Shown piece after piece: positions 35,182 through 61,433 of a DNA stretch of 64,000 bases. The DNA lies in assembly GCA_021772975.1 (NCBI GenBank), contig JAJFKY010000020.1, positions 69,559 to 133,558 on the forward strand, given 5' to 3'. The position numbers were made by a program, and so were the translations under genes. The stretch's first letter is position 1. Every line of letters begins with the position of its first letter. Below the pieces are notes generated by a model. That model was not told the DNA's origin. It searched no databases and was given only the letters and a program-made list of their open reading frames with translations. Source of the stretch: Gammaproteobacteria bacterium. GTDB lineage: Bacteria > Pseudomonadota > Gammaproteobacteria > Xanthomonadales > Wenzhouxiangellaceae.

Positions 35182-35212
35182 CATTGTAGCAGCGGACCAG
35201 GCCGCGACAATG
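35182..35212. repeat. Degenerate REP-like element
   Basis: GTAGCAGCGGACC-A-GGCCGCGAC (35186-35208), flanked by CATTGT and ACAATG, closely matches the unit at 59041-59063 read on the other strand and the unit at 59078-59100. It lies just after the queC stop, where it could act as a 3'-end hairpin. Confidence 0.6.
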
Positions 35213-39264: not shown

Positions 39265-39348
39265 TTTTTTCTGCTTGCATAGCTTTCTGCATTCCATTCC
39301 GAACCATTTTCTGCTGCTGCCACACTGTAAACCCTCTCTGATCTCACG

Positions 39349-39415
39349 GTAAGAGCCCGCTTGCGGGCGAACCTACATCTGCAGGGTTGGAGTCGCCCAC
39401 AAGCGGGCTCTTACC
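39349..39415. repeat. REP-like inverted pair
   Basis: GGTAAGAGCCCGCTTGCGGG (39349-39368) and its reverse complement near 39396-39415 (CCACAAGCGGGCTCTTACC) are separated by about 27 bp. Each arm also contains its own small palindrome (CCCGCTTGCGGG). This matches the REP/BIME format seen in many gammaproteobacteria, and the same core recurs at 59138. It lies between tRNA-Lys and a DUF2189 gene. Confidence 0.85.
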
Positions 39416-57857: not shown

Positions 57858-57984
57858 ACAAAGCCTTGCTTCAGAGATTATTTGCCGCGGGCTGGGATGA
57901 GTTACGAATCCCGGCGGCAGGTGTTTGATGAGGCGACAGTTGCCGGGATTACGCGGTGCTCTTATCGGCCTGCTTTACAGCTTA

Positions 57985-59019
57985 TCAGTGCTTGATTGCA
58001 AGCACCTTATAGCCACGGTTGTCCGCCCGCTGCACAATCTGCAAACCGCTGGCCAGCGCGGTCTGTTCATAGTTCAAAAAACGATTGGCAACTATCCATG
58101 CCTGACCTCTGCGGGTCAGCAGGTCAGGCAGTCTTTGGATAAATGCCGTGGTGACAGCCGTGGTTTGTGAGATGCCCTGGTGAAAGGGCGGGTTACTGAC
58201 AATGAGATCAAACTGATCTTCCAGATCGATCGGCGCGGCCGTTGGTTTAACCATGCCCTGAATATTATTCCGCGCGAATGTCCGGCCAGCCGCGGCCAGC
58301 GCAAAAGCATCGTTGTCGACAGCGGTTATTGAGCTGTCAGGCCGCAGCATTGCCAGCGCGGCGCTGATTGCACCTGACCCGCAGCCGAAGTCCAGCGTTT
58401 TCATTGACCCAGGCAAATCTGACTGATAGGCGCGCAGGGTATCGATCAGCAGGCCGCTGCCGCTGTCCAGGTGTCCATCTGCAAAAACGCCCGCCAGGCT
58501 GGTGATCGGCAGAGTCTGTTCATTGAACTCAAACGGCCAGTGCGTGAATAGTTCAATCAGTTCAACCCGTGGCAATGGCTTAAGCAGCCCTGACCACGCG
58601 TGGCAATGCCGTGCGGTATCAATCTTGTGTATCTGAGTACAGTAATCAACCAGTTTTTTGCCGGTGCTTTTAATCCCGGCGGCCACTGCGCCGATCACGA
58701 TCAGGCGGCTATTGAGCGGAACCCTGCTGCCCAGCAACTGCAGCTGGGCCAGCAGGCGTTGTCTGCCTTTGGGTAAAAATAAAACCACGCAGGTATCCGC
58801 GGGCATTGCAGCCAGATCATCGGGTAGCTGACAGCCAAACCAGGCCGGAATACCGGTTTGCCGCCAGGGCATATAGTGCGAGTAGTTAGCGTGCAGTGCG
58901 CCGGCAATATTCAGGCCGGCATAGATACCCGGGCTGTCCGGAGGGTTGATCAGCAGCAGCGGTGAGGTGATGGCCTGCTGTTGCTGCAGGCGTAGCAGCA
59001 GGGCGGATTCGTTATGCAT
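57985..59019 (-). CDS. rsmC: 16S rRNA (guanine1207-N2)-methyltransferase RsmC-like
   Basis: 344-aa two-domain methyltransferase. The N-terminal half is a catalytically dead Rossmann-like domain; the C-terminal half has the SAM site LDFGCGSGAISAALAM and the catalytic NPPFHQG (IVSNPPFHQGIS), matching RsmC/RlmG proteins. RsmC methylates G1207 of 16S rRNA. RlmG is a close relative (23S G1835), so the exact position modified is inferred from size and sequence shape only. It follows a REP-like cluster downstream of rimO. Confidence 0.85.
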   Translation of the reverse strand: MHNESALLLRLQQQQAITSPLLLINPPDSPGIYAGLNIAGALHANYSHYMPWRQTGIPAWFGCQLPDDLAAMPADTCVVLFLPKGRQRLLAQLQLLGSRVPLNSRLIVIGAVAAGIKSTGKKLVDYCTQIHKIDTARHCHAWSGLLKPLPRVELIELFTHWPFEFNEQTLPITSLAGVFADGHLDSGSGLLIDTLRAYQSDLPGSMKTLDFGCGSGAISAALAMLRPDSSITAVDNDAFALAAAGRTFARNNIQGMVKPTAAPIDLEDQFDLIVSNPPFHQGISQTTAVTTAFIQRLPDLLTRRGQAWIVANRFLNYEQTALASGLQIVQRADNRGYKVLAIKH

Positions 59020-59040
59020 TGGGTCAGGTGTTTGGTTGGG

Positions 59041-59161
59041 TCGCGGCCAGGTCCGCTGCTACCAAACCAAGCCGCTTGTAGGAGCGGACCTGGCCGCGAT
59101 CAGTCGCCCGCAAGCGGACTCCTACAAGCTCTGTTTTGGTAAGAGCCCGCTTGCGGGCGAC
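59041..59161. repeat. Cluster of four REP-like units (BIME-like)
   Basis: Four units alternate in orientation between rsmC and rimO: TCGCGGCCAGGTCCGCTGCT (59041-59060, minus), GTAGGAGCGGACCTGGCCGC (59078-59097, plus), TCGCCCGCAAGCGGACTCCT (59104-59123, minus) and GGTAAGAGCCCGCTTGCGGG (59138-59157, plus). Two sub-types are mixed: the GGACCTGGCC core and the CCGCTTGCGGG core. They can fold into hairpins in the transcript of rimO-rsmC. Units match those at 35186 and 39349. Confidence 0.88.
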
Positions 59162-59169
59162 CAGCCGCA

Positions 59170-60528
59170 TCAAACATCCCCACCAATCAATGCAGCAAAC
59201 AAATCATATTCATCCGCCCCATCAATCTCCACCGTCACCTCATCCCCCGGTTGTAAATGACCGGCATTGGCAATCAGGATCTGCCCGTCAATTTCCGGTG
59301 CATCGGCGTAACCGCGGGCAATCGCCTGACCATCATCGATTTCATCCACCAGCGCTTGTTGCCGCGTACCGATTTTGTTCTGCAGGCGTTGCTCGCTGAT
59401 CTCGGCCTGGGTTTGCATAAAGATATCCCAGCGCTCTTGTTTGACGTCTTCGGGAACCGCGTTTTCCAGTTCGTTGGCTGCCGCGCCATCGACTGGCGAA
59501 TACTGGAAACAGCCAACCCGATCCAGTTGCGCGGCTTTAAGAAATTCCAGTAACTGATTGAATTCCTGATCAGTTTCCCCTGGAAAGCCAACAATAAAGG
59601 TACTGCGGATGGTCAACTCCGGGCAGATTTCCCGCCATTTGCTGACCCGTTCCAGATTGTTCTCGCTGGCGGCCGGCCGGCGCATCCGTTTGAGCACCGC
59701 CGGGCTACCGTGCTGAAACGGGATATCCAGATAGGGCAGGATCAAACCATCGCGCATCAGTGGAATCACATCATCCACATGCGGATAGGGATATACATAG
59801 TGCAGGCGTACCCACACACCGGTGCTACGGCTTAATTCCCCCATCGCAGTGCACAGACCGGTCATGCGGGTCTGGTATTCGGTATCACGCCACCAGTCCG
59901 GTTGATAACGGGTATCCACGCCGTAGGCGCTGGTGTCCTGGGAAATCACCAGCAGTTCGCGCACCCCCGATGCAACCAGTTGCTCGGCTTCGCGCATCAC
60001 CATGCCCAGTGGCCGGCTGACCAGCTTGCCGCGCATCGAAGGGATAATGCAGAAGCTGCATTTATGATTGCAGCCTTCGGATATTTTCAGATAGGCGTAG
60101 TGTTTGGGCGTTAATTTAATACCGGGCTCGGACGCTTTGGCTTGCGGAATTAAATCGACGAATGGATTGTGCGTGACCGGCAGATGCTGATGAACCGAAT
60201 CGAGTACCAGATCGTATTGCTGCGGGCCGCTGACATCCAGCACGCTGGGATGGATGGCGGTGATTTCTTCGGGTTTGGCGCCTAGACAGCCGGTTACGAT
60301 GACTCTGCCGTTTTCACGCAGGGCCTCGCCGATGGTGGCAATGGATTCAGCCTTGGCGTCATCGATAAAACCGCAGGTGTTGACCACCACCAGATCGGCT
60401 TCGTCATAACTGGGTGCGATCCCGTATCCATCGCTGCGCAGGCGAGTCAGGATACGCTCCGAGTCAACCAGTGCCTTGGGGCAGCCGAGCGATACGAAAC
60501 CAACTTTTGGGTTCGGGCTGGAGGTCAT
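59170..60528 (-). CDS. rimO: Ribosomal protein uS12 methylthiotransferase RimO
   Basis: 452-aa radical-SAM methylthiotransferase modifying an Asp of ribosomal protein S12. Order: MTTase domain with Cys in [24 protein letters not shown] and VTGCLGAKP; radical-SAM cluster in [19 protein letters not shown] (C-x3-C-x2-C); TRAM domain at the C terminus ([27 protein letters not shown]). The ATG overlaps the stop of the upstream transporter gene (TAATG), so the pair is coupled. Confidence 0.97.
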
Positions 60529-61433
60529 TACTGTTTGTTATCCGGTTCAAAGAACAACCACACCACGGCTGGAAAAGCAGCCCGGAAACGGCGTTCAATG
60601 GCATTGATGTTGTTGATCAGGCCGTCCTGATCGGCGGCCGGCTGCATTCTGGCCTTGAGCGCTACCATGATGTCATTGCCCAGCTGGAGTGTCAGCAGGT
60701 TAAGGACTTCGTTGATCTCCGGCTGTTCAGACCAGAAGCTCTGCATGTGCTTAACGACTTCCGGGTCGGCGCTTTGTCCGACCAGCAGGGCCTTGACTTC
60801 AACCCCGATCAGGATGGCGATAACGATCAGTAATACCCCGATCGCCAGCGTGCCCAGCGCATCATACAGCGGATTACCGGTCAGCAGAGTCAGGCAGATC
60901 GCCAGCAGAGCCAGCACCAGGCCGAACAGGGCGGCCAGATCCTCGCCAAAAATAACGATCAACTCACTCTGACGGCTGTCCCGGAACCAGCGCCAGTAGC
61001 TGCGGCCGGCGCGGACTTTATTAACTTCGATCACACAGGCACGCAGCGATACTGCTTCGGCAATAATCGCGAATACCAGTACGGCAATGGCAATCCAGGG
61101 CTGAGTCAGAGCTTCCTCTGAGTGCAGTTTATGCATGCCTTCATATAACGAGAACATCCCGCCCACCGAAAACAGCATGATGGCCACCACGAATGACCAG
61201 AAATAAATATTCTTGCCATAGCCCAGCGGATGCGCCGGGGTAGGCCGCTTGTTCGACTCTTTCATGCCCAGCAGCAGCAGTAGCTGGTTGCCGGCGTCAG
61301 CCACCGAATGGATGCCTTCCGCCAGCATCGCACCGGAACCGGTAATGCTGGCGGCCACCAGTTTGGCCACCGCGATAGTGCTGTTTGCGCCAAGCGCGTA
61401 GAGGATTGTCTTAAGAGAGTTTGCGCCTGCCAT
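60528..61433 (-). CDS. Cation diffusion facilitator (ZnT9-like) transporter
   Basis: 301-aa CDF-family membrane protein with about six helices. [25 protein letters not shown] contains the His and Asp of helix 2, [27 protein letters not shown] is helix 3, and [20 protein letters not shown] is helix 5. The last site has Glu-Asp instead of the usual His-Asp (YiiP H153/D157), a pattern I associate with the ZnT9/SLC30A9-like branch. A short cytosolic C-terminal domain follows. CDF proteins export Zn2+, Co2+ or Mn2+; the ion is unknown. It is transcribed with rimO. Confidence 0.88.

Follow-up and report, generated by a model that had tools for sequence, protein, structure and literature searches.

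A probable composite of two REPINs between rimO and an rsmC-like gene in a gammaproteobacterial genome

In the 64,000-nucleotide stretch of gammaproteobacterial DNA analysed here (the window), rimO (59170-60528, minus strand), the gene for ribosomal protein S12 methylthiotransferase (TIGR01125, 552 bits), is followed by an rsmC-like 16S rRNA methyltransferase gene (57985-59019, minus strand; best model NF007023, with a score of 164 bits, under the model cut-off of 295). The two genes are 150 nt apart, and four 22-nt palindromic units in the orientation -+-+ lie at 59041-59160. The locus raises the question of what these units are, how they came to stand in such a place, and whether they matter for the genes on either side. 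We read the interval, with a probability of about 90%, as a composite in which two REPINs, closest in kind to GTAG-1, were spread by a RAYT (TnpA-REP, HUH/Y1) and arrived separately, one of a type that we call B and one of a type A. In our view the element is selfish in the main, and any by-effect on rimO and rsmC would be mild.

Four units in two inverted pairs

A preliminary description of this DNA had recognised four REP-like units in the rimO-rsmC interval, and we find them there: at no more than three mismatches, the cores of type B (CGGACCTGGCCG, in U1 and U2) and type A (CCCGCTTGCGGG, in U4 and, with one change, in U3) match the window at 3 and 4 places, whereas 100 dinucleotide shuffles for each core average 0.00 matches. 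U1 (59041-59062, minus strand; GTAGCAGCGGACCTGGCCGCGA; weight/model match of 33.2 bits) and U2 (59078-59099, plus strand; GTAGGAGCGGACCTGGCCGCGA; 38.7 bits) form a B-B inverted pair with the GTAG ends inward, the first REPIN (59041-59099), whose 22-nt arms are 95% complementary. U3 (59104-59125, minus strand; GTAGGAGTCCGCTTGCGGGCGA; 33.1 bits), a type-A unit with one stem change, and U4 (59139-59160, plus strand; GTAAGAGCCCGCTTGCGGGCGA; 31.1 bits), a type-A unit with the tag GTAA in place of GTAG, form the second, an A-A inverted pair with the tag ends inward (59103-59161) and 23-nt arms that are 91% complementary. The model matches of U2 and U3 are spaced by 4 nt, and U4 lies 9 nt from the rimO stop codon. 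GTAG is kept in three of the four units, and the deviations from the consensus among U1-U4 are GTAGC, GTAA and a T in the stem. Two sub-types had been described as alternating; this is true of their orientation, the order of the sub-types being B,B,A,A. In the rest of the window there are three more units at two places, a single type-B unit (35185-35207, plus strand; a 23-nt model match of 32.9 bits) and a type-A inverted pair spanning 39348-39415, both members of which are GTAA-tagged (39348-39370, plus strand; 39393-39415, minus strand).

The strong hairpin potential attributed to the units is real, and its source is their pairing. On the rimO/rsmC strand the RNA of the interval forms a pair of long hairpins, with a folding energy of -96 kcal/mol (z -10.1; none of 200 shuffles was as stable), and the DNA fold of 59041-59161 gives z -10.3; isolated single units fold weakly (z -0.09 to -1.94), so that the strong hairpins are due to the inverted pairs. 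Such strong hairpins could be taken for a terminator, intrinsic or Rho-dependent, by which read-through into rsmC is prevented, and one terminator-like match does occur on the rimO/rsmC strand (59087-59072, 5 pairs; shuffle mean 0.3). However, this stem is short and in competition with the REPIN hairpin, which is much longer and in whose place it would have to form; an intrinsic terminator is for that reason not favoured. In the sequence as read, neither strand has a T-run after the long hairpins. Termination here would also cut off rsmC, the only promoter-like match in 58900-59300 being a 9/12 site inside rimO (shuffle mean 0.2), and we consider a terminator very improbable.

A repeat family and its transposase genes

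The REP identity of the units is borne out by the genome-wide copy count that the preliminary description had proposed. The genome (24 contigs, 3,735,965 bases) holds about 170 related units of the common form GTAGGAG...CGA. A strict pattern has 79 matches (reversed control, 0) and the pattern GTARGAGCN10GCGA has 136 (reversed control, 1). With a covariance model built from 14 copies, all 150 scored candidates pass at E<=1, out of 4009 candidates at the first look, which makes at least 150 copies; in the 53 stretches around these matches the model finds 171 matches at E<=0.05, and a weight matrix 172 units, against 1 in one shuffled copy. Classified by stem, the 172 units are 90 of type A, 48 of type B, 25 of type C (CGCACCCGGGCG) and 9 others. 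The head GTAGGAG and the tail are near-constant, and two stem pairs co-vary between C-G and G-C (among 12 distinct rows, columns 10-19 are GC in 9 and CG in 3, columns 11-18 GC in 6, CG in 5 and other in 1), 97.9% of the stem cells being paired; the most frequent bases 3' of CGA are CC (94 of 172 units). Diversity does not separate the types by relative age, the mean differences per 23 nt being 1.84 (A), 2.06 (B) and 1.68 (C).

Few copies and no RAYT had been named beforehand as the sign of a merely local hairpin cluster, and the genome contains about 170 copies and a RAYT. A cluster unrelated to REPs is ruled out by the copy count. As to a known family of structured non-coding RNA, Rfam has six matches in 57900-60600, of which five lie over the interval, at 17.5-26.8 bits, but all six are under gathering scores of 33-100 bits; against both alternatives stand the copies throughout the genome and the RAYT gene beside some of them, and together they are left with practically no probability.

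The 172 units make up 67 clusters, and 136 units lie outside mechanically called open reading frames of at least 100 aa, the 36 within such frames counting against the REPIN/RAYT reading. By context the clusters are 34 tandem, 22 convergent, 3 divergent and 8 at an edge or inside frames, counts that are rough because the frames were called mechanically; the same tandem/convergent preference is reported for REPs in general (PMC3733652; here and below, papers are cited for parts of their text). The BIME layout suggested for the interval, an alternating REP cluster, is present, and longer arrays occur elsewhere. At C8:15178 (L170:4579-4937) an array of nine alternating units, for the most part a C followed by a B, has a period of 84 nt, and at the start of contig C16 (L194:89-331) six B units follow each other head to tail, every 44 nt.

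How the units neighbour each other bears on the origin of the composite. Within 100 nt, 69 of 91 neighbours are inverted (shuffle mean 45.7, maximum 59), 65 of 91 are homotypic (mean 33.8, maximum 47), and A meets B or C in just 1 of 91 (mean 40.7, minimum 24 in 2000 label shuffles; the 9 other units were not scored as B or C), all these shuffles moving labels among all units and so overstating independence, since the growth of arrays by duplication is ignored. The pairing habit is that A goes with A, and that B and C go also with each other, forming arrays; among inverted neighbours within 300 nt, 55 of 77 are spaced by no more than 31 nt. The sole A-B/C neighbour pair within 100 nt is the rimO-rsmC site itself (within 300 nt there are six additional A-B meetings, spaced 107-223 nt), and from this uniqueness two separate REPIN insertions can be suggested; that the B pair and the A pair reached the junction separately is the simplest reading. 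Dimers that combine different families occur in S. maltophilia, at about 10% of all dimers (PMC3733652); a site with A beside B is therefore uncommon for this genome but not new in kind.

A RAYT was expected by the preliminary description as the agent of spread, and a search with PF01797 finds three genes in the genome, all of which pass the NCBIfam model of REP-associated tyrosine transposases (83, 129 and 169 bits; cut-off 80). The gene that concerns us most, L002 (contig C23, 156 aa), encodes a RAYT-type Y1 transposase (PF01797, 44.1 bits, above cut-off; NF047646, 129 bits, cut-off 80) and adjoins type-A units: a script finds three of them within 0.3 kb on its downstream side, one of the units beside it being GTAA-tagged, and a decayed fourth is seen by eye. 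In an alignment of nine sequences H72, H74 and Y131 (HxH plus Tyr) are invariant, and Y131 is the putative catalytic tyrosine. Its relative in the PDB is the distant TnpArep 4er8 (E 9.8e-7), which we take to come from E. coli. Contig C23 ends in an inverted copy of the region upstream of this RAYT with its first codons (C23:70466-70687; L002:1896-2117), which may mean that the RAYT is present twice, head to head, or that the assembly folds back here.

The second gene, L003 (contig C20, 164 aa), is closely related to the solved TnpA-REP 4er8 (E 2.3e-45). Its flanks (L003:1160-1970) carry another GTAG repeat, GTAGGTCGGYTTA...TAARCCGACAA, of which the genome has 12 strict copies (control 0); because L002 and L003 are flanked by different repeats, the genome has at least two REP/RAYT systems. 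The third Y1 transposase, L001 (contig C1, L001:1459-2085), passes the RAYT model narrowly, at 83 against 80 bits. By script there is no REP of the first kind near it, the sole weak match being inside the gene, and by eye GGGGTCAGAGTGC or its reverse complement occurs at four places around it. A RAYT flanked by the same REP is thus found for type A only, and none is seen beside B or C units in this assembly. Several contigs start (C1, C6, C16) or end (C3, C13) at or near REPs, so that a RAYT for B and C could be missing from the assembly. Judged by sequence, and wherever they could be tested, the features of REP, REPIN, BIME and RAYT appear in full for type A, and without the RAYT for type B. 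We infer that these units transpose, and that type B uses or used a RAYT as well.

The association can be followed into other genomes. Among 41 genomes, our own included, the covariance model has matches in 12 (E<=0.01) and the L002 protein in 27 (E<=0.001). With RAYT presence cut at E < 1e-15, a limit set after the table had been inspected, the model matches 8 of 9 RAYT genomes against 4 of 32 others (Fisher P 4e-5, related genomes not being independent; G038 is counted with one weak model match and broken RAYT copies). The four with model matches and no strong RAYT match (G004, G008, G011, G017) are counted against a spread by RAYTs. The ninth RAYT genome, G027, was missed by the model, yet the pattern matches it 58 times (reversed control, 3).

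In 7 of the 8 other RAYT genomes the RAYTs are flanked by a repeat variant of their own, seen by script in G025, G036 (one of two copies), G015 and G027, and by eye in G001 (GTAGGAGCGGATTGTATCCGCGA), G009 (GTGGGAGTGAGCTTGCGAGCGA) and G005 (GTTGGAGGCCGCTTGCGGGCGA), whose flanks with GTGG, GTTG or longer stems the script missed; for the broken copies of G038 the script found no flanking variant. Tag, stem and loop thus vary by lineage, and the layout is constant. A tandem REP array beside the RAYT of G005 (C31; L124:1050-1350) carries the GTTG tag of GTTGGAGGCCGCTTGCGGGCGA, from which the tag, too, differs between lineages of the family. Type A is frequent in our genome; it makes up 1 of 31 units in G015 and occurs once in G005, with a GTTG tag. 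In G001 a B unit adjoins a C-like unit, and B and C are therefore common to our species and that of G001.

The junction in relatives and the possible effect on rimO and rsmC

By tblastn over 110 loci, rimO and rsmC are adjacent in seven other genomes; in an eighth co-occurrence (L218) the match is a partial one elsewhere on the locus. From the rimO stop to the rsmC start there are 8 nt in G001 and -11 in G004, against 150 in our genome; with inferred or CTG/GTG starts the distance is -4 in G002 and in G039, 4 in G031 and 25 in G028. In G033 no rsmC start was picked, and the rimO and rsmC protein matches overlap. Neither G001, the only same-genus genome compared, nor G004 has repeats at the junction; with a gap of 8 nt against 150 nt, they are absent from it in the nearest compared genome, and the stretches of about 8 and 21 nt that lie outside the units in our interval have, by eye, no clear counterpart in G001. 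The empty junction of G001 agrees with the insertion of a REPIN as a unit, and by this sequence comparison the REPs at this junction look young. In G008 (contig C19, L067) rsmC stands directly after a relative of the window gene at 60528-61433, with no rimO between. That window gene is presumably a cation transporter.

Members of two RAYT groups are known to bind REPs as single strands and to cut them close to the GTAG-tagged hairpin (PMC8266576), and the inverted doublet is regarded as the moving unit (PMC3116915). We infer by analogy that the same mechanism of mobility applies here. The RAYT would nick the folded single-stranded element near its GTAG tag and the copy would be joined elsewhere; a B-type and an A-type REPIN would have arrived separately and come to end 4 nt apart between rimO and rsmC, and these insertions would have widened a junction that measures 8 nt in G001, of the same genus. 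The pair of genes thus makes a clean before-and-after case (8 nt in the congener, 150 nt here) for the effect of REPINs on a tight gene pair.

As to this effect, PMC12306157 reports, with reference to Liang et al. 2015, that ribosomes are stalled and translation is reduced by E. coli REPs no more than 15 nt from a stop codon, and also that REPs can protect mRNA. On the transcript the hairpin begins 8 nt past the rimO stop, within the 15-nt stalling zone of E. coli, and for this reason it may, by analogy, get in the way of ribosomes that terminate there and protect the rimO mRNA against decay from its 3' end. The 150-nt spacing should, we think, weaken any translational coupling of rimO and rsmC. 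If the REPs behave here as in E. coli, the outcome would be a modest drop of RimO or a stabilised rimO message, together with weaker coupling to rsmC. Upstream of the rsmC ATG there is no anti-SD match (0.7 kcal/mol here, 0.4 in G001); as rsmC is without one in G001 too, coupling in that genome is assumed.

One could go further and suggest that the hairpins are a selected cis-regulatory element of rimO-rsmC, kept for its effect as a 3' stabiliser, an attenuator or a stop-proximal brake. The very stable RNA fold and its start 8 nt past the rimO stop would suit this, as would the literature on REPs near stops (PMC12306157), and 24 of 33 tandem clusters in the genome are nearer to the upstream stop than to the downstream start. 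However, the closeness of clusters to stops is a weak tendency, hardly above chance: 15 of 52 lie no more than 15 nt from a stop, against 11.4 expected under uniform placement (P 0.10), and with a stricter, longer minimum frame 14 of 44, against 9.0 (P 0.024). Also against selection at this place, neither G001 nor G004 has the element at the junction, the genome contains 67 clusters of such units, and the units here are off consensus in tag or stem (GTAGC, GTAA, stem T). We regard a selected element as unlikely, and the mainly selfish two-REPIN composite remains our reading.

The GTAA tag and comparison with known systems

The tag of U4 belongs to a variant of some size. GTAA replaces GTAG in 27 of the 90 type-A units of our genome, and in none of 48 B and 25 C units; among the rows listed for other genomes it has 0 of 31 units in G015, 0 of 19 in G004, 0 of 7 in G017, 2 of 58 in G027 and 1 of 26, a non-palindrome, in G008, and one GTAA unit stands beside a RAYT of G036. 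The string GTAA is absent from the main text of PMC3733652 and of PMC12306157. The base changed in GTAA is needed for cutting by the RAYTs of E. coli and S. maltophilia, and a Marinomonas RAYT tolerated some changes of the tag (PMC8266576). Provided that the GTAA copies carried this tag when they moved, the RAYT of this genome accepts a changed tag, and if a REP class with this tag were spreading in the lineage, the A-beside-B site would be one REPIN class landing in another. We hold such a spreading class to be quite unlikely; GTAA is explained as well by decay, or by a mutation in a single copy that was later amplified, as by a new working tag.

Two further ideas on the variant were rejected. 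A covariation of guide and cleavage sequence, with TT before GTAA and CT before GTAG, is not seen (GTAG, 18 CT and 22 TT; GTAA, 9 CT and 7 TT; Fisher P 0.56). Nor are mixed GTAG/GTAA partners enriched in type-A inverted pairs within 60 nt, as a logic of REP plus inverted REP would have it: mixed tags occur in 3 of 11 pairs with the GTAG ends inward (shuffle mean 3.8) and in 6 of 23 with the tails inward (mean 8.3).

Much of what we describe is otherwise expected biology, and its addition to the list of REP/RAYT hosts is a lineage with three common-ended REP types and a RAYT beside only one of them. The assignment to the GTAG-1 sub-family is likely and draws on ends and layout: the GTAGGA and CGA ends agree with features in a table of PMC3733652, where they are given for both GTAG-1 and GTAG-2. 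With the GTAG-1 REPs of Pseudomonas, Xanthomonas and others, as characterised there, our units share the GTAG tag, the GW bases, a short GC-rich stem, a 3-base tail, frequent inverted dimers, tandem or convergent placement and a RAYT nearby; they differ in that 27 of the 90 type-A units are GTAA-tagged, the stem standing outside this comparison with the family consensus.

Over-represented, hairpin-forming inverted doublets with a RAYT near one class are likewise the mark of REPINs (PMC3116915), from which our case differs in the closeness of its pairs (the majority spaced by 31 nt or less, as given above) and in two REPIN classes that abut. The orthoswitch of fluorescent pseudomonads (PMC3686654) offers the same picture of several common-ended REP classes of which only one is beside a RAYT, the difference being that our assembly has gaps at REP arrays. 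Finally, the E. coli BIME resembles the rimO-rsmC interval in its alternating, hairpin-forming REPs between adjacent genes of the same strand; the REP family is a different one, and of the transposases L002, that of type A, is only distantly like 4er8, whereas L003 is close to it.
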